Source: Winogradskyella marincola (lineage in GTDB: Bacteria > Bacteroidota > Bacteroidia > Flavobacteriales > Flavobacteriaceae). From it: a DNA stretch of 64,000 nucleotides. This document shows positions 33,634 through 49,546 of the stretch, in pieces (position 1 is the first letter of the stretch; every line of letters starts with the position of its first letter). The DNA is taken from NCBI RefSeq assembly GCF_029624125.1, contig NZ_JARSBN010000006.1, forward strand, positions 1 through 64,000, in the 5' to 3' direction. The notes beneath the pieces were generated by a model that saw only the letters and a list, made by a program, of their open reading frames with translations, was not told the DNA's origin and did not search any database. The translations under genes and the position numbers were made by a program.

Positions 33634-33966
33634 ATGGGATTAACGAAATCAGAGAAATTTTCAACAAAACAAAACCAAATTGCAACTCTTGCTAAGGCAT
33701 TTGCTCATCCTGCCAGAGTTGCCATTTTACAACAGATTTTTAAATCTAACACTTGTATTTGTGGCGATTTAGTAGACGAAATTGGTTTAGCACAAGCCAC
33801 TATTTCCCAGCACTTAAGAGAATTAAAAAACATTGGTCTTATAAAAGGAAACATCGAAGGTACCAGTGTTTGCTATTGTATAGATGAAGAAAACTGGAAT
33901 AACATGAAATCTGTTATCTCAAACTTTATAGAACAAAAAAATAATAACAGTAGCGACTGCTGCTAA
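33634..33966 (+). CDS. arsR: ArsR family metalloregulator
   Basis: A 110-residue winged-helix repressor. The recognition helix is in IGLAQATISQHLRELKNIGLI (about residues 49-69). The metal-sensing motif SNTCICGDLV places two Cys (CxC) in the alpha-3 region used by arsenite sensors. The C-terminus ends SSDCC, offering a further thiol pair. It is expected to repress this operon until As(III) or Sb(III) binds. The next gene starts 12 bases downstream. Confidence 0.92.
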   Translation: MGLTKSEKFSTKQNQIATLAKAFAHPARVAILQQIFKSNTCICGDLVDEIGLAQATISQHLRELKNIGLIKGNIEGTSVCYCIDEENWNNMKSVISNFIEQKNNNSSDCC

Positions 33967-33978
33967 ACTTAAAATATT

Positions 33979-34452
33979 ATGACATTAAAAGAGATTACAT
34001 CAGCTTTAAGTACTCTAGATAAGATTGCTTTTCAATTACCTAATGGAGACTTGGTTCCTTCGCATTTTCATGTTACTGAAGTCGGAAAAATAAACAAACT
34101 ATTTATCGATTGTGGAGGAACAATAAGAAACGAAGACGTTGTTAATTTTCAATTATGGAATGCCGATGACTATGATCACAGGCTACATCCTGAAAAATTA
34201 GTGAACATCATTAACCTTTCCATTGAAAAATTAAACATTAATGAAAACCTTCCTATTGAAGTAGAATACCAAGGTGAAACGATTGGAAAATTTGGGTTAG
34301 AATTCGATGGCACTAACTTCTTATTAACCACAAAGCAAACTGATTGCTTAGCTAAAGACAAATGTGGTATTCCTGAAGCTAAACCAAAACGTCAACTTTC
34401 AACCTTAACTGATGATGAACCATGTTGTTCACCTGATGGCAACTGTTGTTAA
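33979..34452 (+). CDS. DUF6428 family protein of the arsenic operon
   Basis: A 157-residue protein regularly found after arsR in Bacteroidota arsenic operons, of unknown function. Most of it is a compact alpha/beta domain (TLDKIAFQLPNGDLVPSHFHVTEVG at the start). The C-terminal 40 residues are rich in cysteine: TDCLAKDKCG, then DDEPCCSPDGNCC, six Cys in all. A role in binding or delivering arsenite is a reasonable inference from this tail and the context. It lies 16 bases before the reductase gene. Confidence 0.85.
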   Translation: MTLKEITSALSTLDKIAFQLPNGDLVPSHFHVTEVGKINKLFIDCGGTIRNEDVVNFQLWNADDYDHRLHPEKLVNIINLSIEKLNINENLPIEVEYQGETIGKFGLEFDGTNFLLTTKQTDCLAKDKCGIPEAKPKRQLSTLTDDEPCCSPDGNCC

Positions 34453-34468
34453 ATCCAAAAACTAAACC

Positions 34469-35089
34469 ATGATATATTCAACATTAAAAGATACTATTGA
34501 GGACTTTGATACCACTTCAATCTCTGAAGAACGAAAAAAAGTACTTCAACCTTTAATAGATTTTATTCAGTCTAAAGTTGATGCTAAAGCAACTGTAAAT
34601 CTCAATTTTATTTGCACGCACAATTCCAGAAGAAGTCACCTCTCACAAGCTTGGGCACAAGCGACTGGCTTTTATTTTGGGATAGAAAACTTGTTTTGTT
34701 ATTCTGCAGGTACAGAAGCAACAGCCTTATTTCCTGTAGCAGCAGAAACACTTTCTGACGCTGGATTTAATGTAGAACCATTATCTGAAGGCAACAATCC
34801 TGTGTACAGTTTAAAATATGCCGAAAATGCGCATCCTATCATCGGATTCTCAAAAACCATTACTTCAGAGTTTAATCCTCAAAATGAATTTGCAGCCATA
34901 ATGACTTGCTCTTCGGCAGATCAAGGTTGCCCTTTTATTGCTGGTGCAGAAAAGCGAATTCCTATTACTTACGAAGATCCTAAAGTATCAGATGGCACAC
35001 CGCAACAAACTGAGATTTATAACGAACGTAGCGTGCAAATTGCTACAGAAATGAAGTTTATCTTTTCTCAAATAAATCATATATCATAA
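34469..35089 (+). CDS. Arsenate reductase-like low-molecular-weight protein tyrosine phosphatase
   Basis: A 206-residue phosphatase-fold protein. The P-loop C(x)5R reads CTHNSRR (residues about 49-55, NFICTHNSRRSHLSQAWA). Further Cys occur in MTCSSADQGCPF (about 149-160), positions that could take part in the disulfide relay of thioredoxin-coupled arsenate reductases. It is expected to reduce arsenate to arsenite for export by the next gene, which begins right after its stop codon. Confidence 0.85.
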   Translation: MIYSTLKDTIEDFDTTSISEERKKVLQPLIDFIQSKVDAKATVNLNFICTHNSRRSHLSQAWAQATGFYFGIENLFCYSAGTEATALFPVAAETLSDAGFNVEPLSEGNNPVYSLKYAENAHPIIGFSKTITSEFNPQNEFAAIMTCSSADQGCPFIAGAEKRIPITYEDPKVSDGTPQQTEIYNERSVQIATEMKFIFSQINHIS

Positions 35090-36133
35090 ATGAAAAAGAA
35101 GCTAAGTTTTCTGGATAGCTACCTAACGCTTTGGATATTTTTAGCTATGATTGTTGGTGTTGCTATTGGTAATTTTTTCACTGAATTTCCTGAAATCGTT
35201 AATTCCTTTAGTAGTGGATCAACAAACATTCCTATTGCTATCGGACTTATTGTAATGATGTATCCACCACTGGCAAAAGTTAATTACAGCTTGCTACCAA
35301 AAGTATTTAAGGATGTAAAAATATTGTCCATTTCTTTAGTCTTAAACTGGATTATAGGTCCTGCTTTAATGTTTGTTTTGGCTATAATCTTTTTGCAAGA
35401 TTATCCAGAATATATGGTTGGACTCATTCTTATTGGTTTGGCGCGTTGTATTGCTATGGTTTTAGTTTGGAATGATTTAGCAGAAGGCAGTAGTGAATAC
35501 GGAGCTGGTTTAGTGGCTCTTAACAGTATTTTTCAGGTGTTTGGCTATAGTTTTTATGCTTACCTATTTATCACTGTTCTTCCTCCCTATTTTGGGTTTA
35601 AAGGTGCCATCGTAGACATCTCTATTGGAACCATTGCAGAAAGTGTTGCAATTTATTTAGGAATACCTTTTTTACTTGGCATTCTATCGCGTGTTGTACT
35701 TGTTAAGCTTAAAGGTGAAGTTTGGTATACTCAAAAGTTTATTCCAGCTATTTCACCGTTAACACTCATTGCATTATTATTTACAATTGTAATTATGTTT
35801 TCATTAAAAGGGGAATTGATTGTAGAAATTCCTGGAGATGTACTTATCATAGCCTTACCATTATTAATTTATTTTGTGCTAATGTTTCTTATTGGTTTCT
35901 TTATAAGCAAAGCGATGGGTGCACCTTATGATAAAAATGCAGCTATTGCTTTTACAGCAGCTGGTAATAATTTTGAATTAGCCATAGCTGTTGCTATTGC
36001 TGTATTTGGTCTTAACTCTGGTCAAGCTTTTACTGGTGTTATTGGTCCTTTGGTAGAAGTTCCTGCTTTAATACTATTAGTTAGAGTCGCATTTTGGTTA
36101 AGAAAAAAATACTATTTATCACAAAAAGCCTAA
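35090..36133 (+). CDS. arsB: ACR3-type arsenite efflux transporter
   Basis: A 347-residue inner-membrane permease with ten helices of the ACR3/BART family. Signatures are [19 protein letters not shown] (N-terminal), [16 protein letters not shown] (about residues 117-132, with the conserved Cys used for arsenite transport) and [19 protein letters not shown] (about 291-309). It exports arsenite made by the preceding reductase. Last gene of the arsR operon. ACR3 is sometimes given the symbol arsB although it is unrelated to true ArsB. Confidence 0.93.
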
Positions 36134-36169: not shown

Positions 36170-36212
36170 TGTTTAACTTTAAAAACAAATAGTTAAACAT
36201 TTAGTATCTTTA
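36170..36212 (+). promoter_or_regulatory. Photolyase-cluster promoter 1 with inverted-repeat operator
   Basis: TGTTTAAC (36170-36177), 14 bases, GTTAAACA (36192-36199), 5 bases, then -7 box TATCTTTA (36205-36212). The repeat centre (36184.5) coincides with the -33 position, where no TTG is present. The same layout with identical spacings occurs at 44894-44936. Confidence 0.75.
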
Positions 36213-36230
36213 CATTGTAAATCAATTACA

Positions 36231-36890
36231 ATGGCAAAGAAAAAAAACATAGAGCAAGCAGATTTAATAGCATTATACATGGATTATGTGCTAACGCACA
36301 ACCAACAACCCAAATCTGTGTATGTCTTTTCTAAAGACAACAATTTTGAAGAGCAAAAATTCTACGAACATTTCAATTCTTTTGAAGCCTTAGAAAGAAG
36401 CATTTTCAAAGCTTTTTTTAATAATACGCACGAGGTCTTACAAAAAAGCGAAGACTACCAATCTTTTGATGCGCGAAACAAACTTTTGAGTTTCTACTAC
36501 ACCTTTTTCGAAGTGCTTACAGCCAACAGAAGCTATGTAAATTATGCACTTGAAAAAGAAAAAAACAAACTCAAGACGCTTAAATCGCTATCAGGTTTAA
36601 AATCTAGTTTTACCAATTACATATCAACCTTAGATATTAAAACACTAGATCTCAAAGAAGAAAAATTAGAAAAACTTCAAAAGCGAAGCATAGAAGAATC
36701 CGCTTGGATTCAGCTATTGATGACCATAAAGTTTTGGATGGATGACACCTCTAAAGCATTCGAAAAAACCGATGTATTCATCGAAAAATCTGTCAATACC
36801 AGCTTCGATCTTATCGATACCACTCCATTAAAAAGCCTTATTGACTTCGGAAAGTTTATCTACAAAGAAAAATTTAAAATGAACGTATGA
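36231..36890 (+). CDS. TetR-like transcriptional regulator
   Basis: A 219-residue helical protein at the head of the photolyase cluster. The N-terminal 60 residues fit a TetR DNA-binding domain in a divergent form (PKSVYVFSKDNNFEEQKFYEHFNSFEALERSIF, the YEHF.S.E.L block matching the third helix end). The C-terminal part is a TetR_C-like helical bundle. It is the first gene after the inverted-repeat promoter, so it may be the repressor or activator that binds it. Its stop overlaps the next start (ATGA), coupling it to the ABC1 kinase gene. Confidence 0.75.
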   Translation: MAKKKNIEQADLIALYMDYVLTHNQQPKSVYVFSKDNNFEEQKFYEHFNSFEALERSIFKAFFNNTHEVLQKSEDYQSFDARNKLLSFYYTFFEVLTANRSYVNYALEKEKNKLKTLKSLSGLKSSFTNYISTLDIKTLDLKEEKLEKLQKRSIEESAWIQLLMTIKFWMDDTSKAFEKTDVFIEKSVNTSFDLIDTTPLKSLIDFGKFIYKEKFKMNV

Positions 36891-38197
36891 AGACGATTGA
36901 CAAAATTCCAGTTTCAAAAATATCAAGAGCAACGAAGTTAGTGTCTACAGGTGCAAAAGTTGGTGTTAACTATTTAAAATATTACGGAGACAAAATCACT
37001 AAATCCGAAGAGGAAGCCAAGGAACGTCTCAACCAAAATAATGCCGAAGATATCTATGACAGCCTAAAACAACTTAAGGGCAGCGCACTAAAAGTGGCAC
37101 AAATGCTTAGTATGGAAAAAAGCATTTTACCACAGGCTTACGTAGAAAAATTTTCGTTATCGCAATTCTCAGTACCACCATTGTCTGCGCCTTTGGTTAT
37201 TAAAACTTTTAAAAAATATTTTGGGAAACACCCAGAAGAATTATTCGATACTTTCAATGCAACTTCAGTAAATGCTGCAAGCATAGGCCAGGTTCACTTG
37301 GCCGAAAAGGATGGGAAAAAATTTGCTGTGAAAATCCAATATCCTGGAGTTGCAGAAAGTATTGCTTCTGATTTAGCTTTGGTAAAACCAATTGCTATTA
37401 AGATGTTTAATATTAAGGGCAAAGATTCTGATAAATATTTCAAAGAAGTAGAAAACAAACTTACCGAAGAGACCAATTACATCTTAGAGTTACAACAAAG
37501 TAAAGCTGTTGCCGAAGCTTGTCAACACATTCCAAATCTGAAGTTTCCAGATTATTATGAAGCATTTTCATCAGAGCGCATTATCACCATGGATTACATG
37601 CAAGGTGAGCATCTTTCTGAATTTGTACAACACAATACAGATCAGGAATTATCCAATCAATTAGGACAAGCGCTGTGGGATTTCTACATGTTTCAAATTC
37701 ATAAATTGAAAAAAGTACATGCCGATCCACATCCTGGTAATTTTTTGATTTCAGAGGAAGGCAACTTAATTGCTTTAGATTTTGGTTGTATGAAAGCCAT
37801 TCCTGAGGAATTTTACACACCTTATTTTGAACTTGCGGAAAAAGATACCATCAATCATCCTGAAAAATTTAAAGAAAAACTCTACGAACTAGAAATCTTA
37901 AGAAAAGATGATTCTGAAGAAGAAATCACCTTTTTTACAGCGATGTTTCATGAACTTTTAAGCTTGTTTACCCAACCGTTTCATTCGGAAACTTTCGATT
38001 TTTCTGATGCGGAATTCTTCGGAAAAATTACAGAAATGGGACAAAAATATTCTAAGAGTACAGAATTGAGAAACATGAACGGTAATCGTGGTTCTAAACA
38101 TTTTATTTACATCAATAGAACCTTCTTTGGGCTCTATAACTTAATGTTCGACCTCAAAGCTAAAGACATCAAAATCAACAACTTTAATACGCTATAA
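36887..38197 (+). CDS. ABC1/AarF (UbiB-like) atypical kinase
   Basis: A 436-residue ABC1 kinase-like protein. The KxGQ-type motif appears as LKGSALKVAQMLSME (about residues 64-78). The Ala-rich nucleotide loop is AASIGQVHLAE (about 129-139), the catalytic Lys lies in FAVKIQYPG, and HADPHPGNFLI plus LDFGCMK (about 281-302) hold the catalytic and metal-binding Asp. Family members act in isoprenoid-quinone or lipid metabolism. Its place in a photolyase cluster is conserved-looking but functionally unexplained. Start overlaps the TetR-like gene by 4 bases; the next gene starts immediately. Confidence 0.9.
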   Translation: MKTIDKIPVSKISRATKLVSTGAKVGVNYLKYYGDKITKSEEEAKERLNQNNAEDIYDSLKQLKGSALKVAQMLSMEKSILPQAYVEKFSLSQFSVPPLSAPLVIKTFKKYFGKHPEELFDTFNATSVNAASIGQVHLAEKDGKKFAVKIQYPGVAESIASDLALVKPIAIKMFNIKGKDSDKYFKEVENKLTEETNYILELQQSKAVAEACQHIPNLKFPDYYEAFSSERIITMDYMQGEHLSEFVQHNTDQELSNQLGQALWDFYMFQIHKLKKVHADPHPGNFLISEEGNLIALDFGCMKAIPEEFYTPYFELAEKDTINHPEKFKEKLYELEILRKDDSEEEITFFTAMFHELLSLFTQPFHSETFDFSDAEFFGKITEMGQKYSKSTELRNMNGNRGSKHFIYINRTFFGLYNLMFDLKAKDIKINNFNTL

Positions 38198-38830
38198 ATG
38201 ATAGAATTTGATATCAAGGATATAAACCAAATGCATCATTTATACCGCATAAACCTTATCAATAGTTGTTCTGGATACAAGTCTGCGAATCTCATTGGTA
38301 CAAAAAGTAAGGATGATATAAGCAACGTAGCTGTGTTTAGTTCGGTGACGCATCTAGGATCAGATCCTGCTTTGCTGGGCTTTTTTCTGAGACCAACTAC
38401 AGTTATTAGAAACACGTATGATAATATTAAAGAAACTGGTTTTTTCACGTTAAATCATATTCATCAACATATTATTGAAGATGCGCATCACACTTCTGCA
38501 AAATACGAAGCTTCTATTTCAGAGTTCGATGTTACCAAGCTAGAAGAAGAATATAAAGACGATTTTTTAGCTCCCTTTGTAAAAAACTGTCCATTACAAT
38601 TGGCAATGGAATATGTAGAAGAATACCCAATAAAAGCTAATGACACCATTTTATTGATAGGAAAAATCAAAAAACTGTATATAAAAGATGGCTTATTAGA
38701 GAAAGATGGTTTTATCAATTTATCAAAAGGAAACGTTGCTGCAATTAATGGTTTAGATGCTTATGCTGTTCCAAGTTCTAACTCACGTTTAGAATATCAA
38801 AGACCTAAAATGAACCTTTCTAATCAATAA
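38198..38830 (+). CDS. Flavin reductase family protein (FMN-binding split barrel)
   Basis: A 210-residue protein of the flavin reductase-like superfamily: NVAVFSSVTHLGSDPALLGFFLRPTT (about residues 44-69) and the TGFFTLNHIHQHI segment (about 83-95) are the FMN-binding signatures. It may supply reduced flavin for the photolyases and cryptochromes in the cluster, or act on an unknown substrate. The gene begins directly after the ABC1 kinase stop. Confidence 0.85.
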   Translation: MIEFDIKDINQMHHLYRINLINSCSGYKSANLIGTKSKDDISNVAVFSSVTHLGSDPALLGFFLRPTTVIRNTYDNIKETGFFTLNHIHQHIIEDAHHTSAKYEASISEFDVTKLEEEYKDDFLAPFVKNCPLQLAMEYVEEYPIKANDTILLIGKIKKLYIKDGLLEKDGFINLSKGNVAAINGLDAYAVPSSNSRLEYQRPKMNLSNQ

Positions 38831-38869
38831 AAATTTAAAAAGTTGAAGTTATTTAATTCAATGACATGT

Positions 38870-38935
38870 CGACTGCGCTCAAAGTGACAAATGAAACAAT
38901 ATGATTTCCCCTTTGGGGAATTAAAAGGGGCTTTT
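38870..38935. repeat. Mosaic of intergenic repeats upstream of the DUF2867 gene
   Basis: CGACTGCGCTCAAAGTGAC (38870-38887) is a degenerate relative of the repeat at 19641-19665. It is followed by the palindrome TTCCCCTTTGGGGAA (38906-38920) and AAAAGGGGCTTTT. The second part resembles the CCCC/GGGG repeats at 41780-41861. An open frame runs through it, but it is repeat DNA rather than coding. Confidence 0.55.
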
Positions 38936-40357
38936 ATGAAAATATTACTCACAGGTACAACAGGCTATATTGCCAAAAGATTAGCACTTCAGCTTTTAGA
39001 AGATGAGCATGAGCTCGTTTGTTGTGTTCGTGATTTAAATCGTATTCCAGATGAAATTGAAAATCATCCCTCTTGCTCCTTTATTAAACTCGACTTTTTA
39101 AATCCTGAACCCAACAAAATTCCTCAAGATATAGATGCTGCTTATTACTTGATACATTCTATGTCTACAAGTTCAAACGATTTTGAAGATTTAGAACGTC
39201 AGTGCGCTCAGAATTTTAAGAATTTGGTAAATGCCACACGTTGCAAACAAGTAATTTATCTCAGCGGAATCGTCAACGACAACTCTCTTTCAAAACATTT
39301 AAAATCTCGTCTTCAAGTTGAAAACACATTAAAGTCAGACCACTACGCACTTACCACATTTAGAGCTGGAATTATAGTTGGTAGTGGTAGCGCTTCGTTC
39401 GAAATCATAAGAGACATTGTAGAAAAACTACCTTTTATGATAACTCCACGATGGTTAAAAACCAAAACACAACCTATTGCTATTCGAGATGTTTTGGCTT
39501 TTCTTTCTGGCGGATTAGACAAAGAGGAATTGTACAATAAATCCTTCGATATTTTTGGTCCAGAAGTCCTTACCTACAAGGAAATGTTGCTTCAATTTGC
39601 CGAAGTTCGTGAGCTAAAACGCTACATTGTAACACTACCTGTTTTAACACCCAAATTATCATCGTTCTGGTTGTATTTTGTAACCTCTACATCATTTAAA
39701 CTAGCTACTGCTTTGGTAGATAGTATGAAGGTTGAAGTCATTGGCAAACCTAGCAACATCAATAAAATTATTGGTGTTGAGCCTGTAGATTACAAAACAG
39801 CTGTAAATCTAGCATTTCAAAAAATTGAACAAAATGCTGTTGTATCCAGCTGGAAAGACGCTATAAGTAGTGGACGTTTTAATGTTCAACTTTCAAAATA
39901 TATTGAGCTTCCAAACTATGGTTGCTTTAAAGATATAAGGCACAGAACTGTACAAGATGAAACTTACACACTCAATAAAATTTGGAGTATTGGTGGCCGT
40001 AATGGCTGGTACAGTTTTAATGGACTTTGGCAAATTAGAGGTTATATCGATAAGATTTTTGGCGGAGTTGGTTTGCGTCGTGGAAGAACACACGATAACT
40101 ATCTCGAAGCTGGTGACGCATTAGATTTTTGGCGTGTGCTCTTTGCCGATAAAGACGAAAAGCGGCTACTTCTTTTTGCTGAAATGCGCTTACCTGGAGA
40201 AGCCTGGTTAGAATTCAAAATTGTAAAGAATCAACTTTACCAACGTGCTGTTTTTAGACCTAGAGGAATTTGGGGACGGCTGTATTGGTACGCAGTTCTA
40301 CCCTTTCACGCTTTTGTTTTTAACGGAATGATCAACGCTTTGATTAATAAAAAATGA
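38936..40357 (+). CDS. SDR (NAD(P)-binding) and DUF2867 domain protein
   Basis: A 473-residue two-domain protein. Residues 1-290 form an atypical short-chain dehydrogenase with the nucleotide loop [16 protein letters not shown] (about 6-21) and the active-site region [10 protein letters not shown]. The C-terminal DUF2867 domain (about 330-470) includes [27 protein letters not shown] and [23 protein letters not shown] start at the ATG at 38936 because the in-frame extension upstream is repeat sequence. The stop overlaps the DUF2256 start (ATGA). This protein is commonly found with photolyases; its substrate is unknown. Confidence 0.85.
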
Positions 40358-40500
40358 AAGGTATAAAAAAGCAACATCTGCCCACAAAAATATGTCCAGT
40401 TTGTGAACGACCTTTTATCTGGCGCAAAAAATGGGCAAAGAATTGGGACAACGTAAAATATTGTAGCGAAAAATGCAGAAGAACGACACAAAAAATCTGA
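40354..40500 (+). CDS. DUF2256 domain-containing small zinc-ribbon protein
   Basis: A 48-residue protein with [20 protein letters not shown] (residues about 10-29) and [10 protein letters not shown] near the end, so a CxxC...CxxxC zinc site. This is the DUF2256 family, known to accompany cryptochrome/photolyase genes in many bacteria. It starts inside the stop of the DUF2867 gene (ATGA) and its last 28 bases overlap the start of the DASH cryptochrome gene in another frame. The function is unknown; nucleic-acid binding is plausible. Confidence 0.88.
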
Positions 40501-41777
40501 TTTGGTTTAGAAATGACCTGAGAACTATAGATAATGCTGTTTTAAGTGAAGCTACTAAAAATGGCAATACTGTTTTTGGTGTGTATTGTTTCGATCCTAA
40601 ACACTATCAAATTGATGCTTTTGGTTTTAGAAAAACAGAAAAATTTAGAGCACAGTTTTTAATTGAAACCATTAAGGATTTAAAAACACAACTCAGTGAA
40701 CTCAACATAGAATTACTAGTATATAACGAGCATCCCGAAGTAATAATTCCGAAACTTTGCGACAAATTAAATGTTGAAGCCATTTACCTTCAAAAGGAAT
40801 GGACACAAGAAGAAATAGACTCTGAAAATGCAGTTAAAGCAAACATTGAAAACGTGACTTGGCATCACATTTATAATCAATTTTTGTTTCATCCTGAAGA
40901 TATCAATTTTGAGATTTCTAAAACACCGCAAGTCTTTACAGTTTTCAGAAAAAAATTAGAAAAATACATCAGTATTAGGCCTGAGGTTGAAATACCAAAA
41001 CTGCCAAAAAGCAATCGCATTGAAAACACCACAAGAATTCCAACACTTTCAGATTTAGGCTTTAATAATTTTGAAACACATCCACACTCAGCATTTCCAT
41101 TTAAAGGTGGTGAAACTGCGGCCCAAAACCGATTGGATGACTATTTTTTCAACACCAAAAAATTAGGTTTTTATAAGAAAACGAGAAACGGTTTGGTAGG
41201 CAAGGATTATAGTTCAAAATTTTCGCCTTGGCTGGCTAATGGCAGTATTTCTGCCAGAACGATCTTTTGGAAAGTAAAAGAATTTGAAAAAGAACATTAT
41301 AAAAACCAATCGACTTACTGGCTAATTTTTGAATTGATTTGGCGCGACTATTTCAAATACATTTCTCTGAAGCATGGCAACCAGATTTTTAAACTCGAAG
41401 GCATACTAAACAAAGATTATAATTGGTCTACAAATCAAGCGCAAATTCAACAATGGATAAATGGTGAAACAGCATCTGACTTTGTAAATGCCAACATGAT
41501 CGAACTTAAAGAAACTGGCTGGATGAGTAATAGAGGTCGCCAAAACGTAGCATCCTATTTTGCTAAAGAACTAGAGTTAGATTGGCGTATAGGTGCTGCG
41601 TATTTTGAGTCGCTCCTACTCGATTATGATGTGCACAGCAACTATAGCAATTGGATGTATGTAGCTGGAGTTGGTAACGATCCTCGTGATCGTAAATTCA
41701 ATGTGCAATTGCAAGCCGAGCGTTACGACAGCAATGGAAAATTTAGAAACCTATGGTTACAACCGAGTTTGTTTTGA
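40473..41777 (+). CDS. DASH family cryptochrome
   Basis: A 434-residue photolyase-superfamily flavoprotein. The N-terminal antenna-binding Rossmann domain (1-130) starts [19 protein letters not shown]. The FAD-binding domain (about 200-430) has [57 protein letters not shown] and [49 protein letters not shown]. The Asn near the flavin N5 and the Trp of the electron-transfer chain lie in the last block. DASH proteins repair lesions in single-stranded or looped DNA. Its start codon lies within the DUF2256 gene. A large inverted repeat follows its stop. Confidence 0.92.
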
Positions 41778-41779
41778 GA

Positions 41780-41861
41780 ACACCCCTAAAGTCCCCTCAA
41801 GGGGACAATACTCAAAAATGACTAGAGAACAAATGTCCCCTTGAGGGGACCTTAGGGGTGT
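41780..41861. repeat. Large imperfect inverted repeat with nested palindromes
   Basis: Arms of 28 bases (41780-41807 and 41834-41861) match with one mismatch when inverted. Each arm contains its own palindrome (CCCCTCAAGGGG, CCCCTTGAGGGG). It fills the gap between the DASH cryptochrome and the next photolyase gene and may work as an mRNA hairpin or be a dispersed intergenic repeat. Confidence 0.75.
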
Positions 41862-41874
41862 AAATAATTAAAAT

Positions 41875-43350
41875 ATGAAACAGAAAGCAACAGCATTAAT
41901 ATTTCCACATCAATTATTTCAGGATTCACCAATTCTAGAAATTGATGCAGCTATTTACCTCATTGAAGAATATCTGTTTTTTAAGCACTATAAATTTCAT
42001 AAACAGAAAATAGCGTTCCATAGAGCATCTATGAAAGCTTACGGTGATTTTTTAGGGTCTAAAGGTAAAACTGTTCATTATATTGAAGCAACTTCAGACG
42101 ATAGTGACATCAGAACATTGATACCCAAACTGATTGACAGTGGTGCAGAAACGCTTCATATTATTGACCCAACAGACAATTGGCTAGAAAAGCGTATTAA
42201 ATCAAAGGCAAAAGACATTACAGTTGAATGGTACGAAAGTCCACTGTTTATCAATACAAAAAAAGATCTCAGCTCATTTTTTAAACCTTCAAAAAAGAAA
42301 TTTTTTCAAACTTCATTTTATAAAGAACAACGAAAAAATCGAGACATTTTAATGGTTTCCAAAGAACCTGAAGGAGGCAAATGGACTTATGATTCTGAAA
42401 ACCGAAAGAAATATCCAAAAGACAAAACACCACCAAATATTCAGTTTCCTGAACGGTCAGAATACTATGAGGAAGCAAAAAAGTATACAGAAAAACATTT
42501 TGACAATCATTATGGTGAACTGAATGACTTCATTAATTATCCTATAGATTTTGAATCTTCTGAAGCGTGGTTACAGCAATTTTTTGACTATCGTTTTCAT
42601 GAATTTGGTGTGTATGAAGATGCCATTGTAAAGGAAGAACATTTTTTAAACCACAGTTTACTCTCACCATTAATTAATGTTGGTTTGCTAAACCCTTCAG
42701 ATGTAATTGATAAAGCCATTGCTTATGCTAAAGAAAATGACGTACCTATCAATTCAACAGAAGGTTTTGTAAGGCAAATTTTAGGCTGGCGCGAGTTTAT
42801 AAGAGGTGTTTACGAAGTAAAAGGAACAGAAGAGCGCACTAAAAACTTCTGGAACTTTGATCGCAAAATCCCTGCATCATTTTACGACGGTTCAACAGGA
42901 ATAAAACCTGTGGATGATGTGATAAAAAAAGTACTAAAAACAGGTTATGCGCACCATATAGAACGCCTAATGATTCTTGGGAATTTTATGGTGCTTTGTG
43001 AGTTCGATCCTGATGAAGTTTACCAATGGTTTATGGAATTATTTATCGACTCCTACGATTGGGTTATGGTGCCGAATGTGTATGGCATGAGCCTGTTTGC
43101 CGATGGTGGTTTAATGTCTACAAAACCATACATAAGCAGCAGTAACTACATCATGAAAATGAGTAACTACAGCAAAGGCGAATGGCAAGACACTTGGGAT
43201 GGCTTGTTCTGGAACTTTATGGATAAACATCGTGATTTTTTTGATAGCAATCCTAGATTAGGTATGCTTTTAGGCAACCTTGATCGTATGAAAAAAGACA
43301 CTCTCGAAAACCATTTTAATAACGCAGAAAAATTCCTGAACACGCTATAA
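41875..43350 (+). CDS. FeS-BCP/PhrB-type photolyase homologue lacking cluster cysteines
   Basis: A 491-residue member of the prokaryotic (6-4) photolyase/CryB group (deoxyribodipyrimidine photolyase-related). The opening TALIFPHQLFQDSPIL, the FVRQILGWREFIRGVYEVKG block (about residues 298-317), GYAHHIERLMILGNFMVLCEF (357-377) and VPNVYGMSLFADGG (399-412) are diagnostic. Classical members hold a [4Fe-4S] cluster with four Cys. Here only the first position (Cys375) remains, in fact the only Cys in the protein, and the CxxC position reads NYSKGEWQ (431-438). The cluster is therefore very probably absent. Its stop codon overlaps the start of the next photolyase. Confidence 0.9.
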   Translation: MKQKATALIFPHQLFQDSPILEIDAAIYLIEEYLFFKHYKFHKQKIAFHRASMKAYGDFLGSKGKTVHYIEATSDDSDIRTLIPKLIDSGAETLHIIDPTDNWLEKRIKSKAKDITVEWYESPLFINTKKDLSSFFKPSKKKFFQTSFYKEQRKNRDILMVSKEPEGGKWTYDSENRKKYPKDKTPPNIQFPERSEYYEEAKKYTEKHFDNHYGELNDFINYPIDFESSEAWLQQFFDYRFHEFGVYEDAIVKEEHFLNHSLLSPLINVGLLNPSDVIDKAIAYAKENDVPINSTEGFVRQILGWREFIRGVYEVKGTEERTKNFWNFDRKIPASFYDGSTGIKPVDDVIKKVLKTGYAHHIERLMILGNFMVLCEFDPDEVYQWFMELFIDSYDWVMVPNVYGMSLFADGGLMSTKPYISSSNYIMKMSNYSKGEWQDTWDGLFWNFMDKHRDFFDSNPRLGMLLGNLDRMKKDTLENHFNNAEKFLNTL

Positions 43351-44840
43351 TGACGAACAAACCACATATTAATGTTGTATGGCTAAAACGCGATTTACGA
43401 CTTCAGGATAATGAAGCCATTACTAATGCGCTCAGCACTGGTAAACCTACGCTACTGCTGTATGTGTTTGAACATATCTTACTAAACGACAATCATTATA
43501 GTGAACGACATTTTAATTTTATTAAAGAGTCAATCAATGACCTTAACAAGCAATTAGAGCCATATAATACCAAAATATTAAGCGTTACGAGTGATATTCA
43601 AACAGCATTTAACTTAATTCAAGAATTCTATAAAATAGATGCCATTTTCTCTCATGTTGAAACTGGTATTTTAGTGACATACAACAGAGATAAAGAATTT
43701 ACACGTTATTGTCGTAACAATTTCATCCGTTGGAACGAAAGTAAAAACAATGGTGTAGAGCGTGGACTAACCAATAGAGACAACTGGTTAGAACAATGGG
43801 AAGACTATATTAGTCAACCACTTCTAGAGTTTCATCCAGAAGACAATCAGTTAATAAGCCTTCATGCTATTTCAAAACTAGAAAGTGTACTAACAGTTAC
43901 AAACTTAGACACACCAAAAGACTCTTTATTTCAAAAAGGAGGAAGTTCTATCGCATGGAAATATGCTTCGTCATTTTTTGAAAATCGTCATAAAGACTAC
44001 ATGTTCAACATATCAAAACCAGAAGCATCGCGTACGAGTTGTAGTAGGCTTTCGCCTTATATTGCTTGGGGAAATGTTTCTATCCGACAGATTTTTCAAA
44101 AAGCTCAAAATATTAAAGAACAGAGCAAGGATAAACGACATATTGGCGGTTTTTTATCACGATTACGGTGGCAAGCCCATTTCATTCAAAAGTTTGAAAT
44201 GGAACACACCATGGAAAACGAAAGTGTTAACAAAGGGTATCACAAATTAAAAAAGAGTATTTCTTTAAAATACCAACAAGCATGGAAGGAAGGCCAAACA
44301 GGTTTCCCTCTAGTAGACGCAAGTATGCGTTGTTTAGTAGAGACAGGTTACGTAAACTTTAGAATGCGTGCCATGCTCGTCTCGTTTTTTACACATATTT
44401 TATGGCAACCTTGGCAAAATGCTTCAGAACATTTATCGCAACAATTTTTAGATTTTGAACCTGGTATTCATTTTCCGCAATTGCAAATGCAAGCTGGTGA
44501 AACCGGAATAAATAATTTGAGAATATACAACCCAACACTAAACGGACTAAAGCATGATCCTGATGCTGAGTTTATAAAAAAATGGGTGCCAGAACTTGCA
44601 CATTTAGATGTGCCTTTTATTCATGAACCTTACCTAATGACCGAATTAGAGCAAGGCTTATACAACTTTAAATTAGGCGAAGACTACCCAAAACCCATTG
44701 TAGATATTAAAGAAAACAGAAAGCGTGCCAGCGATATTTTATGGAATATGAAGAAAGATCCTGATGTTGTAAAAGAAAGTTTTCGCATTTTAAAACGACA
44801 TACTCTAAAAGACAGAAACAGCCTTTTACGAAACAACTAA
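43350..44840 (+). CDS. Divergent cryptochrome/photolyase family protein
   Basis: A 496-residue homologue of class I photolyases. The antenna domain starts NVVWLKRDLRLQDNEAI, and the FAD domain has SRLSPYIAWGNVSIRQIF, FPLVDASMRCLVETGYVNFRMRAMLVSF and a final block GIHFPQLQMQAGETGINNLRIYNPT. In ordinary photolyases that last block contains the NN.GNWQW motif (FAD-contacting Asn and the first Trp of the electron-transfer chain); here both are replaced. It belongs to a recognisable subfamily with this alternative block and of unclear activity. Last gene of the first transcription unit of the cluster. Confidence 0.85.
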   Translation: MTNKPHINVVWLKRDLRLQDNEAITNALSTGKPTLLLYVFEHILLNDNHYSERHFNFIKESINDLNKQLEPYNTKILSVTSDIQTAFNLIQEFYKIDAIFSHVETGILVTYNRDKEFTRYCRNNFIRWNESKNNGVERGLTNRDNWLEQWEDYISQPLLEFHPEDNQLISLHAISKLESVLTVTNLDTPKDSLFQKGGSSIAWKYASSFFENRHKDYMFNISKPEASRTSCSRLSPYIAWGNVSIRQIFQKAQNIKEQSKDKRHIGGFLSRLRWQAHFIQKFEMEHTMENESVNKGYHKLKKSISLKYQQAWKEGQTGFPLVDASMRCLVETGYVNFRMRAMLVSFFTHILWQPWQNASEHLSQQFLDFEPGIHFPQLQMQAGETGINNLRIYNPTLNGLKHDPDAEFIKKWVPELAHLDVPFIHEPYLMTELEQGLYNFKLGEDYPKPIVDIKENRKRASDILWNMKKDPDVVKESFRILKRHTLKDRNSLLRNN

Positions 44841-44893
44841 ACGGCTCTGCTCTCACTGTAAAAATAGTACAATCATAATTCCTTGTTAATTTT

Positions 44894-44936
44894 TGTTTAA
44901 CTTTTTAAAATAAAGGTTAAACATTTTGTATATTTG
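44894..44936 (+). promoter_or_regulatory. Photolyase-cluster promoter 2 with inverted-repeat operator
   Basis: TGTTTAAC (44894-44901), 14 bases, GTTAAACA (44916-44923), 5 bases, then a perfect -7 box TATATTTG (44929-44936). All spacings equal those at 36170-36212. The repeat centre (44908.5) falls on the -33 position, which has no TTG. The start codon follows only 3 bases later. Confidence 0.78.
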
Positions 44937-44939
44937 AGT

Positions 44940-45377
44940 ATGCTAATAGATACTACACATTATAATTCTGAACACAAACAAATCATTGCAGACCTTGTTG
45001 GCAGTCCTTTTTGTTTGGTACAGAAATTGAAATTAAGAGGTGTAGGTTCTAAGCGTATGATTGTAGATGAAGTTAGTCCTAATTTACAACAAGTGCTAAA
45101 CATAGTGTCAGATATTAACTATGGTAATATAGAACTACGACCAAAAGGCATTCTAATTCATATTACAAAAGGCTTAAAAAACTTTACTTGGATTATACCT
45201 TATTACCATTTGGTTATTTATAAAATCAATGGTTCTAGCATACATGCGCAAGGAAAATTTGTGCACTTTAGAGCTAACAAAACTTTTAAAGAAAATAAGA
45301 AATTTTTTGACAAGTTAATCGACCAAAAGACAAAGCATGACATGCTTTATAAAATGCCTGACACCTTATGGATTTAA
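44940..45377 (+). CDS. Hypothetical protein heading the second photolyase-cluster operon
   Basis: A 145-residue protein of no recognised family, soluble and basic. A C-terminal beta-rich part (WIIPYYHLVIYKINGSSIHAQGKFVHF, about residues 80-106) resembles a small barrel. The first ATG (44940) is only 3 bases past the -7 box, so the transcript would be leaderless. A TTG 6 bases upstream is impossible as a start if the promoter is right. The next in-frame Met would cut off about 35 residues. Its stop overlaps the next gene by 10 bases. Confidence 0.65.
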   Translation: MLIDTTHYNSEHKQIIADLVGSPFCLVQKLKLRGVGSKRMIVDEVSPNLQQVLNIVSDINYGNIELRPKGILIHITKGLKNFTWIIPYYHLVIYKINGSSIHAQGKFVHFRANKTFKENKKFFDKLIDQKTKHDMLYKMPDTLWI

Positions 45378-45640
45378 CACAAAGACATATTGATCGGGTT
45401 ATTGAAATGGCATGGGAAGACCGAACACCTTTTGAAGCGATAAAATTTCAATTCGATTTAAAAGAGCAAGAAGTCATCACTTTAATGCGAAAAGAATTAA
45501 AGCCAAGTAGCTTTAGATTATGGCGAAAACGCGTACAAGGAAGAGCAACTAAACACACAAAGAAACGAACATTTGACAAAGGCAGATTTAAATGCTCGCG
45601 TCAAAAAACAATAACGAATAACTCTATTTCAAAACGTTAA
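45368..45640 (+). CDS. TIGR03643 family protein
   Basis: A 90-residue basic protein with the TIGR03643 signature: IDRVIEMAWEDRTPFEAIKFQF (about residues 8-29), then EVITLMRKELKPSSFRLWRKRVQGRATKH. It looks like a small helix-turn-helix-type nucleic-acid binder. This family is typically found beside photolyase and light-response genes; the function is unknown. It overlaps the preceding gene by 10 bases. Confidence 0.85.
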   Translation: MDLTQRHIDRVIEMAWEDRTPFEAIKFQFDLKEQEVITLMRKELKPSSFRLWRKRVQGRATKHTKKRTFDKGRFKCSRQKTITNNSISKR

Positions 45641-45695: not shown

Positions 45696-46388
45696 ATGAA
45701 TACAAAAGCAATTTCCAAAAACAATGGTCAAAAACTTAATGGTTTTAGCACAGAAGCCATTGGTGACGACCACTTATTCACCAGCTTAGAAACACCAATG
45801 AAAGCAAATGCTTTCGATATGTCTAATGAAGAAAAAAAGAGCAGAATCTCTATTTTATTTTCAGAAATTATGGATGTACTAGGCTTAGATCTTACAGATG
45901 ATTCTCTAAGTGGCACACCAGACCGTGTAGCTAAAATGTACGTTGAAGAAATATTTTCGGGTTTAGATCCTCAAAATAAACCTAAAGTTGCATTATTCGA
46001 TAATAAATATCAATACAACCAAATGTTGGTAGAAAAGAATATTACATTTTATTCTAACTGCGAACATCATTTTGTACCAATTATTGGAAAAGCACACATT
46101 GCTTACAAATCTTCAGGAAAAGTTATTGGACTCTCTAAACTTAATAGAATTGTTCAGTATTACGCCAAAAGACCTCAGGTACAAGAACGATTAACCAATC
46201 AGATTGCTAACGAACTAAAAACGGTTTTAGAAACCGAAGATGTTGCTGTAATTATAGATGCCAAACACCTTTGTGTATCGTCAAGAGGTGTTCAAGATGA
46301 CACATCTACAACAGTAACGACCTATTATGGTGGAATTTTTAATACACCAGAAAAAATCAATGAAATTCAAAATTATATAAATAATTAA
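45696..46388 (+). CDS. folE: GTP cyclohydrolase I
   Basis: A 230-residue type I enzyme that converts GTP to dihydroneopterin triphosphate, the first step of pterin and folate synthesis. The zinc-binding and catalytic motifs are SNCEHHFVPIIGKAHIAY (about residues 116-133) and AKHLCVSSRGVQDDTSTTVT (about 189-208). LSKLNRIVQYYAKRPQVQERLT is the usual central block. Placed in a photolyase operon, it may boost supply of pterin-type antenna chromophores (such as methenyltetrahydrofolate). Confidence 0.95.
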   Translation: MNTKAISKNNGQKLNGFSTEAIGDDHLFTSLETPMKANAFDMSNEEKKSRISILFSEIMDVLGLDLTDDSLSGTPDRVAKMYVEEIFSGLDPQNKPKVALFDNKYQYNQMLVEKNITFYSNCEHHFVPIIGKAHIAYKSSGKVIGLSKLNRIVQYYAKRPQVQERLTNQIANELKTVLETEDVAVIIDAKHLCVSSRGVQDDTSTTVTTYYGGIFNTPEKINEIQNYINN

Positions 46389-46391
46389 GTT

Positions 46392-46619
46392 ATGGATATA
46401 TTAGATCAAGCCAAAGAATTTGAAAACAGAAAGTTTTCATTCAAGACAACAAGCGACAGAATTTTAGCTGCAAGAGAAGCAAAAGATATTATCCTTGGTG
46501 TAAACGAGGTTTATAAAAAGAAAAAAGACCAAAAACTTATGGATCTTATGAAGCGCCTTACGGTTATAAAACAAAAGATCGAAAAACGTCTGAAAGGTAA
46601 GCCTTTAACTGCAGCATAA
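46392..46619 (+). CDS. Small hypothetical helical protein
   Basis: A 75-residue, Lys-rich, wholly helical protein (EAKDIILGVNEVYKKKKDQKLMDLMKRLTVIKQKIEKRLKG). It begins 3 bases after folE and its stop overlaps the start of the SDR gene (TAATG). No family is recognised. The conserved position in the operon argues that it is real. Confidence 0.7.
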   Translation: MDILDQAKEFENRKFSFKTTSDRILAAREAKDIILGVNEVYKKKKDQKLMDLMKRLTVIKQKIEKRLKGKPLTAA

Positions 46620-47305
46620 TGAAAACTATAATTGTTATTGGAGGAAGCAAAGGCATTGGCAAAGCCTTAATTTCGTCTTTGCTTTCTTCTTATGATAACA
46701 TTGTTAATATCAGTAGAACTGAGCCTGCAATTTCTGGTGGTAATATAACGCATTATTCCTGTGATATTCTCACAGATGACTTACCTGATATTGAAAGCGC
46801 AGATGGTTTAGTGTATTGTCCTGGAAGCATTAATCTTAAACCCATTAATCGTTTGAGTATTGAGGATTTTCAAGATGATTTTAACCTCAATGTCATAGGT
46901 GCTGTAAAGGCAATTCAAAAATATTTACCAGCATTAAAGAAAGGAAATAATCCTTCTATTGTGCTATTTAGTACAGTTGCTGCAAAATTAGGAATGCCTT
47001 TTCACGCAAGTGTTGCTGCTTCAAAATCAGCGGTTGAAGGCTTAACAAAATCTTTAGGAGCAGAATTAGCGCCAACGGTACGTGTTAATGCAATTGCACC
47101 AACAGTAACTAACACAGAATTGGCTTCAAAACTCTTAAGGAATGACAGTATGATTGAAAAAATGAACGAGCGTCATCCTCTAAAGAAAATCCTTCAACCT
47201 GAAGAAGTTGCTGACATGGCTAAGTTTTTATTGTCTGATAAAGCTTCATCGTTATCTGGACAAATTTTTGAAATGGATTGTGGCATTGTAAGTTTTAAAC
47301 TTTAA
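46619..47305 (+). CDS. Short-chain dehydrogenase/reductase
   Basis: A 228-residue classical-type SDR. The cofactor loop is GGSKGIGKALISSLL (residues about 8-22). The catalytic centre shows Ser in VLFSTVAA and HASVAASKSAVEG in place of the usual YxxxK, so the catalytic Tyr is replaced (Val/Ala-Ala) while Lys remains. RVNAIAPT follows as normal. The Tyr loss suggests altered or absent reductase activity. It sits between folE and tspO in the photolyase cluster; a pterin-related role is conceivable but unproven. Confidence 0.85.
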   Translation: MKTIIVIGGSKGIGKALISSLLSSYDNIVNISRTEPAISGGNITHYSCDILTDDLPDIESADGLVYCPGSINLKPINRLSIEDFQDDFNLNVIGAVKAIQKYLPALKKGNNPSIVLFSTVAAKLGMPFHASVAASKSAVEGLTKSLGAELAPTVRVNAIAPTVTNTELASKLLRNDSMIEKMNERHPLKKILQPEEVADMAKFLLSDKASSLSGQIFEMDCGIVSFKL

Positions 47306-47311
47306 TTTTTG

Positions 47312-47776
47312 ATGAAAAAAATCCAATATCTCATACTGTTTTTAGTCATCAACTTTGGAGGTTTAGCATTAGGAGTTTGGCTGATGGATAATGGACCAAC
47401 ATCCGATTGGTATTTAAGTCTGAATAAAGCTCCATGGACTCCTCCTGGTTGGCTTTTTGGCGTAGCTTGGAGTACCATTATGGCTTGCTTTTCTTGGTAT
47501 TTAGCAGAGCTCTTTATATTAAGAGCCTCAAAATATTTATGGATGATATATATTTTTCAGGTCATTTTGAATGTTGGCTGGAACTTCGTCTTTTTTAATC
47601 AGCACTTAACAACTGTTGGACTTGGAGTTATAATTCTACTAACCTTGGTCATTCTTTATTTTTTCATCACATTTAGAAGCGATAGGCTCAAATATGCCAA
47701 ATATCTACTTCTGCCCTACATCATTTGGTTGTGCATAGCAACATCGCTCAATGCCTACATTGTTTTAAATAATTAA
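47312..47776 (+). CDS. tspO: TspO/MBR family tryptophan-rich sensory protein
   Basis: A 154-residue five-helix membrane protein. Typical motifs are DWYLSLNKAPWTPPGWLFGVAWSTIM (about residues 29-54), with the Pro-rich and Trp-rich loop, and NVGWNFVFFNQH (about 88-99). TspO proteins bind and degrade porphyrins and regulate pigment or stress responses in a light- and oxygen-dependent way, which fits the cluster. The ATG at 47312 is preferred to a TTG one codon earlier. Confidence 0.92.
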   Translation: MKKIQYLILFLVINFGGLALGVWLMDNGPTSDWYLSLNKAPWTPPGWLFGVAWSTIMACFSWYLAELFILRASKYLWMIYIFQVILNVGWNFVFFNQHLTTVGLGVIILLTLVILYFFITFRSDRLKYAKYLLLPYIIWLCIATSLNAYIVLNN

Positions 47777-47778
47777 TC

Positions 47779-48240
47779 ATGAAAATTTACACTCTACACA
47801 AAAAACAGAATTTACCAATCTCTGTAGACGAAGCATGGAATTTTCTATCTGATCCAAGAAATTTAAAAACCATTACTCCAGATTATATGGGCTTTCATAT
47901 ACTTTCTGGTGCTGACAGACCTATGTTTCCTGGGCAAATTATTCAATATATTGTTACACCTGTTTTAGGTATTAAAACAAAATGGGTTACAGAAATCACA
48001 CACGTTAAGGACAAAAAATATTTTGTAGATGAACAACGTTTTGGTCCTTATGCACTTTGGCATCATAAGCATTTTATAAAGCCAATTGAAGGTGGTGTAG
48101 AAATGGAAGATATTGTAGATTATAAAGTTCCTATGGGAATCTTAGGGCAAATGGTGCATCCTTTTTTGGTAAAACCAAAACTTGAAGAAATTTTTAATTA
48201 CAGAACAACAAAGCTTGAAGCGCTTTTCGGAAAATATTAA
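47779..48240 (+). CDS. SRPBCC family protein
   Basis: A 153-residue START/Bet v1-fold protein of the cyclase/dehydrase-like subgroup. The entry LPISVDEAWNFLSDPRNLKTITPDYMGF and the WHHKHFIKPIEGGVEMEDIVDYKVPMG block (about residues 94-120) are typical. It may bind a hydrophobic ligand. It starts 2 bases after tspO and ends 1 base before the last photolyase gene. SRPBCC proteins are frequent members of light-induced photolyase clusters. Confidence 0.88.
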   Translation: MKIYTLHKKQNLPISVDEAWNFLSDPRNLKTITPDYMGFHILSGADRPMFPGQIIQYIVTPVLGIKTKWVTEITHVKDKKYFVDEQRFGPYALWHHKHFIKPIEGGVEMEDIVDYKVPMGILGQMVHPFLVKPKLEEIFNYRTTKLEALFGKY

Positions 48241-48241
48241 T

Positions 48242-49546
48242 ATGAGCAAAGCAGTAAATGTATTTTGGTTTCGTAGAGACCTTAGAGTAGATGATAATGT
48301 AGGATTTTATGAAGCCTTAAAAGGCGAGCATCCTGTTTTACCAATTTTTATTTTCGATTCTGAAATATTAGATAAATTACCAGAAGACGATGCTCGTGTT
48401 ATCTTTATACACCGAACCTTGCAAAATATGAGACAAACCTTGCAAGACAAGCATAACAGCAGTATTGCCATATATCACGGCAAACCACTTGAAATCTACA
48501 AACAACTTACTGAGGATTTTGATATTGATACCGTCTACACTAACCATGATTATGAGCCTTATGCTAAAGAGCGTGATGAAGAAATTCTATCCTTTTTAGA
48601 AGCACAAAATATTGAATTTAAAACCTTCAAAGATCAAGTGATTTTTGAAAAAAACGAAGTCGTAAAAAACGATGGTGATCCATACGTTGTTTACACACCA
48701 TACATGCGTACATGGAAGGAAAAATTCAAAACAATTGATTTAGAAATTTTTTACACCAACAACTATCTAGACAATTTAATAGCACAAACACGCTTGCCAA
48801 ATTTAAGTTTATCAGATATAGGTTTTACAACGTCTAGCCAAGAGATTGCAGATTATGATGTTACACCAACCCTCATTCAAAATTACGAAGACACACGAAA
48901 TTTCCCAGCTAAAGATGGCACATCTCGTTTAGGACCTCACTTACGTTTTGGAACCGTAAGTGTTCGTAAAATGGTAAAAAAAGCCATAGCCGAAAAAAAT
49001 GAAATCTTTTGGCAAGAACTGATTTGGCGTGAGTTTTTTATGCAAATCCTATGGCATTTTCCGCATACAAAAGACAAAGCCTTTAAGAAAAAATACGATC
49101 GTATAGAATGGCGAAATAATGAAGATGATTTTAAAAAATGGTGTGAAGGAAAAACAGGTTATCCTTTGGTTGATGCTGGAATGCGTGAGCTAAACGAAAC
49201 AGGTTTTATGCACAATAGAGTGCGCATGTTGGTTGGTAGCTTTTTGTGCAAACATTTACTTATAGATTGGCGTTGGGGCGAAGCCTATTTTGCAGAAAAG
49301 CTTCATGACTACGAAATGGCAAGTAATGTTGGTAATTGGCAATGGGTAGCAGGTTCTGGTGTAGATGCTGCTCCTTATTTTAGAATATTTAATCCGACAA
49401 CTCAAATTCAGAAATTTGATAAAGACCATAAATACATAAAAAAATGGGTACCAGACTATCAAGAACTCACTTACCCTAAACCTATGGTAGATCATAAAGA
49501 AGCCAGAGAGCGCTGTTTGGCGACTTATAAATCGGCTTTAAAATAA
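48242..49546 (+). CDS. phr: Deoxyribodipyrimidine photolyase, class I
   Basis: A 434-residue CPD photolyase. The antenna domain starts VNVFWFRRDLRVDDNVGF. The FAD domain has GTSRLGPHLRFGTVSVRKM (about residues 222-240), IFWQELIWREFFMQILWHFP and GYPLVDAGMRELNETGFMHNRVRMLVGSFL. The complete terminal block MASNVGNWQWVAGSGVDAAPYFRIFNP (about 358-384) carries the FAD-contacting Asn and the Trp chain. It is the only one of the four homologues here with every classical photolyase residue, so it is the best candidate for the main light-dependent CPD repair enzyme. I start at the ATG at 48242; an upstream extension overlaps the SRPBCC gene. Confidence 0.93.
   Translation: MSKAVNVFWFRRDLRVDDNVGFYEALKGEHPVLPIFIFDSEILDKLPEDDARVIFIHRTLQNMRQTLQDKHNSSIAIYHGKPLEIYKQLTEDFDIDTVYTNHDYEPYAKERDEEILSFLEAQNIEFKTFKDQVIFEKNEVVKNDGDPYVVYTPYMRTWKEKFKTIDLEIFYTNNYLDNLIAQTRLPNLSLSDIGFTTSSQEIADYDVTPTLIQNYEDTRNFPAKDGTSRLGPHLRFGTVSVRKMVKKAIAEKNEIFWQELIWREFFMQILWHFPHTKDKAFKKKYDRIEWRNNEDDFKKWCEGKTGYPLVDAGMRELNETGFMHNRVRMLVGSFLCKHLLIDWRWGEAYFAEKLHDYEMASNVGNWQWVAGSGVDAAPYFRIFNPTTQIQKFDKDHKYIKKWVPDYQELTYPKPMVDHKEARERCLATYKSALK

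Follow-up and report, generated by a model that had tools for sequence, protein, structure and literature searches.

Two photolyase-cluster operons of Winogradskyella marincola share an inverted-repeat operator probably read by a CarH/LitR-type regulator

The classical MerR/SoxR activators have a helix-turn-helix (HTH) related to that of the light regulators considered here, and their operator lies between the −35 and −10 elements. In Streptomyces, the LitR/LitS system pairs a light regulator with a gene for an extracytoplasmic function (ECF) sigma factor. CarH and the LitR proteins of Pseudomonas are dark repressors that overlap the −35 or −10 element (PMC9304148, PMC9758184). The contact motif of the CarH repeats is TnnACA (PMC9304148), and His132 is the light-state cobalt ligand of Thermus CarH (PMC10442372). 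For the Pseudomonas LitR/PplR proteins (PplR1 and PmlR2), paired TGTACA half-sites have been described, one pair of which lies over the −35 region (PMC9758184). In Chryseobacterium, carotenoids are light induced and no car or lit operon was found (PMC7064467). The present analysis concerns a window of 64,000 nucleotides from Winogradskyella marincola (Flavobacteriaceae; contig NZ_JARSBN010000006.1, positions 1 to 64,000), in which two photolyase-cluster operons are each preceded by the same inverted repeat. A sequence-only reading of this stretch had proposed that a dedicated dimeric regulator binds the repeat and replaces the −33 contact, naming the TetR-like protein encoded next to the first copy as the nearest candidate and an off-window MerR/CarH-type photoreceptor as the second. 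Comparison across genomes favored the second candidate, and a MerR protein of the CarH/LitR type, which carries a B12-binding domain and is encoded outside the window, probably has both repeats as its operators. In the open-access literature, which was not searched for the operator letters themselves, no account was found of this operator, or of photolyases under CarH control in Flavobacteriaceae.

Operator 1, TGTTTAAC-N14-GTTAAACA, occupies positions 36170 to 36199 of the + strand and is followed by the spacer TTTAG (36200 to 36204) and the −7 box TATCTTTA (36205 to 36212, + strand). Operator 2 has the same exact half-sites at 44894 to 44923 (+ strand), followed by the spacer TTTTG (44924 to 44928) and the −7 box TATATTTG (44929 to 44936, + strand). 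Both copies, each with its box 5 bp downstream, were read directly in the sequence, and neither 14-bp spacer contains the −33 TTG, as had been reported. The earlier statement that the arrangement occurs nowhere else was true of exact copies, since the genome-wide motif search that had been proposed returned only these two at zero mismatches, both in the scan of the window and in the whole 3.52 Mb genome; base composition predicts 0.005 exact matches per genome. It was not true of a one-mismatch copy at a fasciclin gene or of a half-site at carH. Allowing up to two mismatches added two further copies in the genome. The first, at G000:C10:119769-119798 (L003; G000 being the own genome), has one mismatch and a −7 box inside it and lies upstream of a fasciclin-domain gene, and the second, at window position 51911, has two mismatches and lies inside an open reading frame (ORF). 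A search of the own genome for the −7 box fused to GTTAAACA gave two matches, one of which was the fasciclin promoter; at the other, C16:496914, no fitting ORF start was found near by.

The exact motif was found at 149 sites in 102 of 299 genomes of the family, and the reversed pattern gave 2 matches. Fifty exact sites were examined among the matches listed, comprising the 30 loci returned for exact motif matches and 20 consecutive further entries of the site listing, and 48 of these lay either at genes of a photolyase cluster or at carotenoid, pterin or fasciclin genes. Of the 30 loci, 12 had the site upstream of crtI and immediately behind a CarH-like gene, seven had it at the TetR-like/ABC1 operon, six at the orf145 operon, and two at fasciclin-domain genes identified by Pfam; the other three were single cases, at folE, at a DASH cryptochrome cluster, and at a DUF2805 cluster with a distant photolyase match. 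The 20 further sites fell at crtI (13), the TetR-like gene (2), fasciclin genes (2), a DUF2805 cluster (1), a gene of the D-arabinono-lactone-oxidase type (1), and an unknown gene (1). The arrangement in the window, with two sites about 8.5 kb apart at the TetR-like and orf145 operons, was also present in at least four genomes among the matches listed (G265, G044, G107, and G175). The possibility that the motif turns up at random upstream of unrelated genes was examined in this way, and the near confinement of the sites to one gene set instead supported the earlier proposal of a regulon under one dedicated regulator. It might still be supposed that the repeat is a product of chance or shared ancestry and has no function, as the sequence is AT-rich and exact copies in the own genome number two only. 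The 149 sites against 2 in the reversed control contradict chance, however, and the outer seven bases of each half-site were 97 to 100% conserved across 109 sequences (inner C, 74%; inner G, 59%) while the middle was poorly conserved and drifted; a functionless repeat is considered a negligible prospect. The comparison supports a regulon in which one regulator would tie together carotenoid, photolyase, and pterin genes. Fasciclin genes bearing the site were seen in other genomes at L014, L025, L223, and L227.

In a class-wide set of 149 genomes, 12 besides the own genome carried an exact site and the control gave 2 matches. Nine of the 12 sites were near carH, crtI, folE or photolyase genes; at L323, L330, and L333 none of these genes was close by. 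The 12 come from other families of Bacteroidia, and in six of them a sigma-factor-like gene, close to carH, crtI or photolyase genes, follows the site (L324, L327, L328, L331, L332, and L334); the sigma-factor label was checked by Pfam in four of the six.

A PF13411 search of the own genome gave two MerR proteins. The candidate regulator is a protein of 300 residues encoded outside the window at G000:C10:21932-22834, with an N-terminal MerR-type HTH (PF13411, E 6.8e-16) and a B12-binding_2 domain (PF02607), and it aligns with T. thermophilus CarH over residues 7 to 226. In 66 aligned proteins, the W-x9-EH motif of the B12-binding helical domain was almost invariant (W143 in 66, E153 in 66, and H154 in 65), and H193, the lower cobalt ligand His of the E/D-x-H-x-x-G motif, was present in all 66. 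The gene heads a carH-crtI-crtB-crtZ operon whose further members, named by eye, are of the FAD (flavin adenine dinucleotide) amine-oxidase, phytoene-synthase, and fatty-acid-hydroxylase types. By analogy with known CarH proteins, the protein would bind adenosylcobalamin, oligomerize, and be released by light.

Co-occurrence pointed to the same protein. CarH genes were classed by best E-value, those between 1e-60 and 1e-40 being called divergent (21 genomes) and all others standard (221 genomes, including G295 with a partial match and G135 and G212 with both types). In counts that rest on hand-collated genome lists, the exact motif was present in 98 of the 221 genomes with standard CarH, in 2 of the 21 with only divergent CarH, and in 2 of the 57 with none (standard versus none, Fisher p 2e-10); the two CarH-less motif genomes are both incomplete (81% and 76%). 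The first-named candidate of the sequence-only reading, in which the TetR-like product of the gene at 36231 is an autoregulator that controls its own operon through the repeat, was not supported by these data. The gene lies directly downstream of operator 1, and its product has TetR topology (model predicted local distance difference test score, pLDDT, 88; best PDB match 3c07, E 1.7e-4) with helices in the HTH positions of the predicted fold, but no Pfam TetR_N match was obtained at E 0.001. The motif is not confined to genomes with the TetR-like gene, as 17 of the 102 motif genomes lack it and all 17 carry carH, so that the expectation for a TetR autoregulator fails. Moreover, the sites precede crtI and, in other families, lie at carH-linked genes. 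Conversely, the TetR-like gene is present without carH in 10 genomes, and of the seven in which the upstream region was read, the operator was absent from five and present in two, both incomplete. The TetR-like protein was rejected as the binder on this co-occurrence and on the co-variation of operator and MerR type described below, and it is considered very unlikely in that role.

The role of the TetR-fold protein may lie elsewhere. Human Coq9 is among the fold matches of its model (rank 44, E 0.023), and an ABC1/UbiB-type kinase gene follows the TetR-like gene in 21 of 21 loci in which tblastn detected the latter (the window pair at 36231 to 38197). Coq9 has a TetR fold, binds lipids, and acts together with the ABC1 kinase Coq8. 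Because of the Coq9 match and the conserved pairing, a Coq9/Coq8-like lipid function is possible, and the product may act with the kinase by binding lipid instead of DNA; this is offered as a lead from the modeled fold.

Further support for the CarH/LitR-type protein came from the co-variation of operator and recognition helix. A variant operator, TGTCTAAY-N14-RTTAGACA, was found in 9 of the 299 genomes; eight of these TCT genomes come from the set of 21 whose CarH is divergent, and G135, the remaining one, also carries such a paralogue. Residues of the recognition helix were read for 45 standard proteins, 21 divergent proteins, and six further paralogues, out of 242 CarH genomes. Ile26 and Lys29 were present in all 45 standard proteins, Lys26 was present in 17 of the 21 divergent ones, and a Lys26-type CarH paralogue was present in 9 of 9 TCT genomes. 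The operator of the TetR-like gene was compared in nine divergent genomes. Its left arm was TCT in six, all with Lys26; G025 was TTT-type with Ile26, and G014, with Lys26, had no operator. In G212, which has both CarH types, the TetR-like operator is TTT-type and the standard carH adjoins the TetR-like operon. The comparison thus supports the view that operator type follows the CarH recognition helix, if by an imperfect code. This bears on the suggestion that another protein of the crt region, such as one of the CRP/FNR type (L007:14197-14919), binds the repeat while CarH merely travels along. A gene with cNMP (cyclic nucleotide monophosphate)-binding and Crp-type HTH domains does lie close to the crt operon, and a CRP/FNR-type positive regulator reportedly acts in the Thermus light system. 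The operator variant nevertheless tracks the CarH recognition helix, and the N14 gap is ill-suited to CRP/FNR sites, and such a binder is considered very unlikely.

The predicted promoters were of more than one type. The promoters of the TetR-like and orf145 operons (class B) read TTTTGTTTAACTTTT...GTTAAACATTTTGTATCTTTAC or TTTTGTTTAACTTTT...TATATTTG. The operator was present in 85 of 99 TetR-like upstream regions (upstream DNA was read for 99 of 197 TetR-like genomes), where it is kept before the same gene as operator 1, and in 32 of 38 orf145 upstream regions, before the same gene as operator 2. Of the 14 TetR-like regions counted as operator-less, three (G283, G256, and G040) have a middle of 15 bp. 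In the 109 promoters with a recognizable box, taken as the best-scoring position within 12 bp, the gap from operator to box was 5 bp in 94, 4 bp in 8, 6 bp in 4, and 8 bp in 3. In class C promoters, TAnnTTTG lies within the operator and is overlapped by the right half-site. At carH-crtI junctions, part of which were fetched on account of the motif, an operator with up to 3 mismatches was found in 48 of 57 distinct neighbor pairs, and in 45 of these it enclosed TAnnTTTG. The fasciclin promoters were of class C in the own genome and in G044 and not in G119. At 12 crtI sites the ATG lies 0 to 2 bp past the operator, as at the carH-crtI junctions L010, L022, and L038, where the −7 box is inside; the mRNA would therefore be nearly leaderless. 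The promoter of carH itself, TAnnTTTGTTTA, is a half-site fused to a TAnnTTTG box and was found no more than 40 nt from the start in 35 of the 42 genomes for which this region was read. The half-site of the own genome comes right after the box and ends 15 nt before the ATG. The predicted elements place the operator over the −33 position at class B and over the −7 box at class C.

Two ideas on how the promoters are read were tried and rejected. An ECF sigma factor as reader of class B promoters was not identified, as the own genome gave 17 matches to the L334 sigma gene, 25 to 34% identical, with none singled out. A model of the operator middle as tandem 11-bp repeats failed because the middle is not conserved and holds no conserved third repeat. 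In Winogradskyella (L241 to L312, by eye), a third half-site-like sequence, of the GTTAA type, often lies about 10 bp upstream of the left arm; it is weakly conserved overall.

These positions also bear on whether the regulator activates or represses. The same CarH-type regulator could activate the photolyase operons, whose promoters, having no −33 TTG, would need a bound protein. The 5-bp distance between operator and box in most class B promoters agrees with this, as does the frequency of TTG at a spacing of 19 to 22, which was lower in operator promoters (9 of 109) than in background promoter-like sites (36 of 193; Fisher p 0.018, with TTG position counts summed and a noisy background set). 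However, TTG was scarce in the background set too, and this weakens the −33 argument: the missing TTG is only mildly unusual, and weak support for an activator. In addition, the operator is placed differently at crtI, carH, and some fasciclin promoters, known CarH/LitR proteins are repressors, and an operator centered on −33 is well placed to block RNA polymerase. Activation is therefore considered unlikely. Of the earlier claim, the dedicated regulator was retained, and replacement of the −33 contact was found not to be required because family members repress, the operator position varies, and the −33 TTG is often absent from background promoters.

The mechanism proposed for the CarH/LitR-type protein is as follows. 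The half-sites TGTTTAAC and GTTAAACA, with centers 22 bp or about two helical turns from each other, would present the same face of the DNA and be gripped by a protein dimer or by two subunits of a tetramer. At the photolyase-cluster promoters, where the operator is centered on −33, bound protein would block RNA polymerase, and at the crtI promoters of relatives and the fasciclin promoter of the own genome it would likewise block, with the right half-site over the −7 box. In the dark, with adenosylcobalamin, the protein would bind; in the light it would be released, and carotenoid synthesis, photolyases, and pterin synthesis would be turned on together. Since the operator positions fit blocking at all three promoter types, light-relieved repression was favored, and a dark repressor released by light is most likely by analogy with Thermus CarH and Pseudomonas LitR. 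Comparative sequence supports the motif, the regulon, and the choice of regulator, and repression, the dependence on B12 and light, and the oligomeric state are inferred. The link to light that had been suggested for the regulon is probable. A more elaborate scheme would have a B12 photoreceptor work in two modes according to operator position, blocking the −7 box at carotenoid and fasciclin genes and replacing the −33 contact at photolyase promoters that have no −33 element, where it would recruit RNA polymerase, with a photochemistry independent of His132. This scheme is regarded as unlikely.

Several observations weigh against the assignment to CarH. Known CarH operators are tandem 11-bp direct repeats, nnnnTnnACAn, whereas the half-sites here are inverted and the sequence between them is poorly conserved. 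In all 45 standard proteins the equivalent of Thermus His132 (position 144 of the CarH proteins here) was Gln, and none of the 21 divergent ones had His there, Gly, Thr, and Ser being seen as well; His132 was treated as a Thermus trait and not as family-defining. An exact site was missing from 123 of the 221 genomes with standard CarH. The operator was absent before the TetR-like operon in six genomes that have CarH (G014, G033, G127, G259, G279, and G291), G084 has a poor operator match only, and the operator is absent before orf145 in 6 of 38 genomes. The carH promoter of the own genome holds only a half-site, and in the own genome and two close relatives, G157 and G009, carH runs into crtI with no operator between. 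Within the co-variation, the right arm in G066 and G230 is not TTAGACA but GTTAAACA and GTTGAACA, respectively, G253 combines Ile26 with a mixed site, and in three further genomes (G135, G166, and G057) the paralogue has Val26 or Met26. The co-variation may also trace to few evolutionary events.

The genes that follow the two operators all lie on the + strand. Operon 1 begins with the TetR-fold protein (TetR_C_23; 36231 to 36890), placed by Pfam, the structural model, and the PDB fold match and considered a predicted target and not a likely regulator; its top match, 93% identical, is from a Winogradskyella metagenome-assembled genome. It is followed by an ABC1/UbiB-type atypical kinase (36887 to 38197), a flavin reductase-like protein (38198 to 38830), and an NAD-binding/DUF2867 protein (38891 to 40357), each assigned by Pfam, then by a DASH-type cryptochrome/photolyase (40473 to 41777; TIGR02765 above cut-off), and by two further Pfam-assigned products, a deoxyribodipyrimidine photolyase-related protein (DPRP; 41875 to 43350) and a photolyase/cryptochrome family protein (43350 to 44840), the final gene ahead of operator 2. 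Directly 5′ of operon 1, at window positions 33634 to 36133, lie genes for an ArsR-type regulator, a phosphatase-like protein, and an SBF-family transporter, the first two labeled by eye and the phosphatase-like protein without a Pfam match; similar upstream genes were seen in L054. Operon 2 begins with orf145 (44940 to 45377), a conserved protein with no named-family match that adjoins the operator in relatives and whose ATG is just 3 bp past its box. Domain matches identified the DUF2805/TIGR03643 protein (45368 to 45640), a short-chain dehydrogenase (46619 to 47305) that belongs to the cluster and possibly has its own promoter, and a TspO/MBR family protein (47309 to 47776), and Pfam identified GTP cyclohydrolase I (folE; 45696 to 46388). 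A polyketide cyclase-like (SRPBCC) protein (47779 to 48240) was a weak match under the Pfam cut-off, and the final gene of the cluster encodes a DNA photolyase (48242 to 49546, with the ATG start chosen; the ORF list has a TTG start at 48182).

If the assignment is correct, a single B12-type light regulator connects carotenoid genes, pterin synthesis, and photolyase operons in a large family of marine bacteria, and with the operator known the light response could be tested in Winogradskyella cultures and in relatives. The joint change of TTT to TCT in the operator and of Ile26 to Lys in the protein would be a natural experiment on DNA recognition by CarH/LitR proteins, and the missing His132 raises the question of how light would release them.

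Compared with known systems, the regulator is like CarH of Thermus thermophilus, Bacillus megaterium, and myxobacteria in its MerR HTH, its B12-binding domain, and its crt neighbors, and it keeps the Trp, Glu, and lower His of the dark-state contacts of CarH. The operator is also CarH-like in that it overlaps promoter elements, here predicted, and has TnnACA in both half-sites (PMC9304148). Unlike the classical MerR/SoxR activators, it is centered on −33 and not in the spacer between −35 and −10. The light-inducible set of Pseudomonas (phrB, folE, cryB, and a short-chain dehydrogenase) resembles the gene set here (PMC9758184), but Pseudomonas LitR/PplR differs in its TGTACA-N12-TGTACA operator, in having class II proteins under light-oxygen-voltage (LOV) photoreceptors, and in gene order. 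Tested against that operator type, the repeat here differed in both half-site and spacing. A likeness to Streptomyces LitR/LitS is seen in the site before a sigma-factor-like gene in 6 of the 12 motif genomes, from other Bacteroidia families, whereas the sites examined in the family of the window directly precede structural genes. Thermus CarH has His132 where the proteins here have Gln or Gly, Thr, or Ser, and the targets here would include photolyase operons, unlike the carotenoid genes described as CarH targets. Relative to known CarH, the predicted system would differ in its inverted-repeat operator, its photolyase operon targets, and the Gln at the His132 position.

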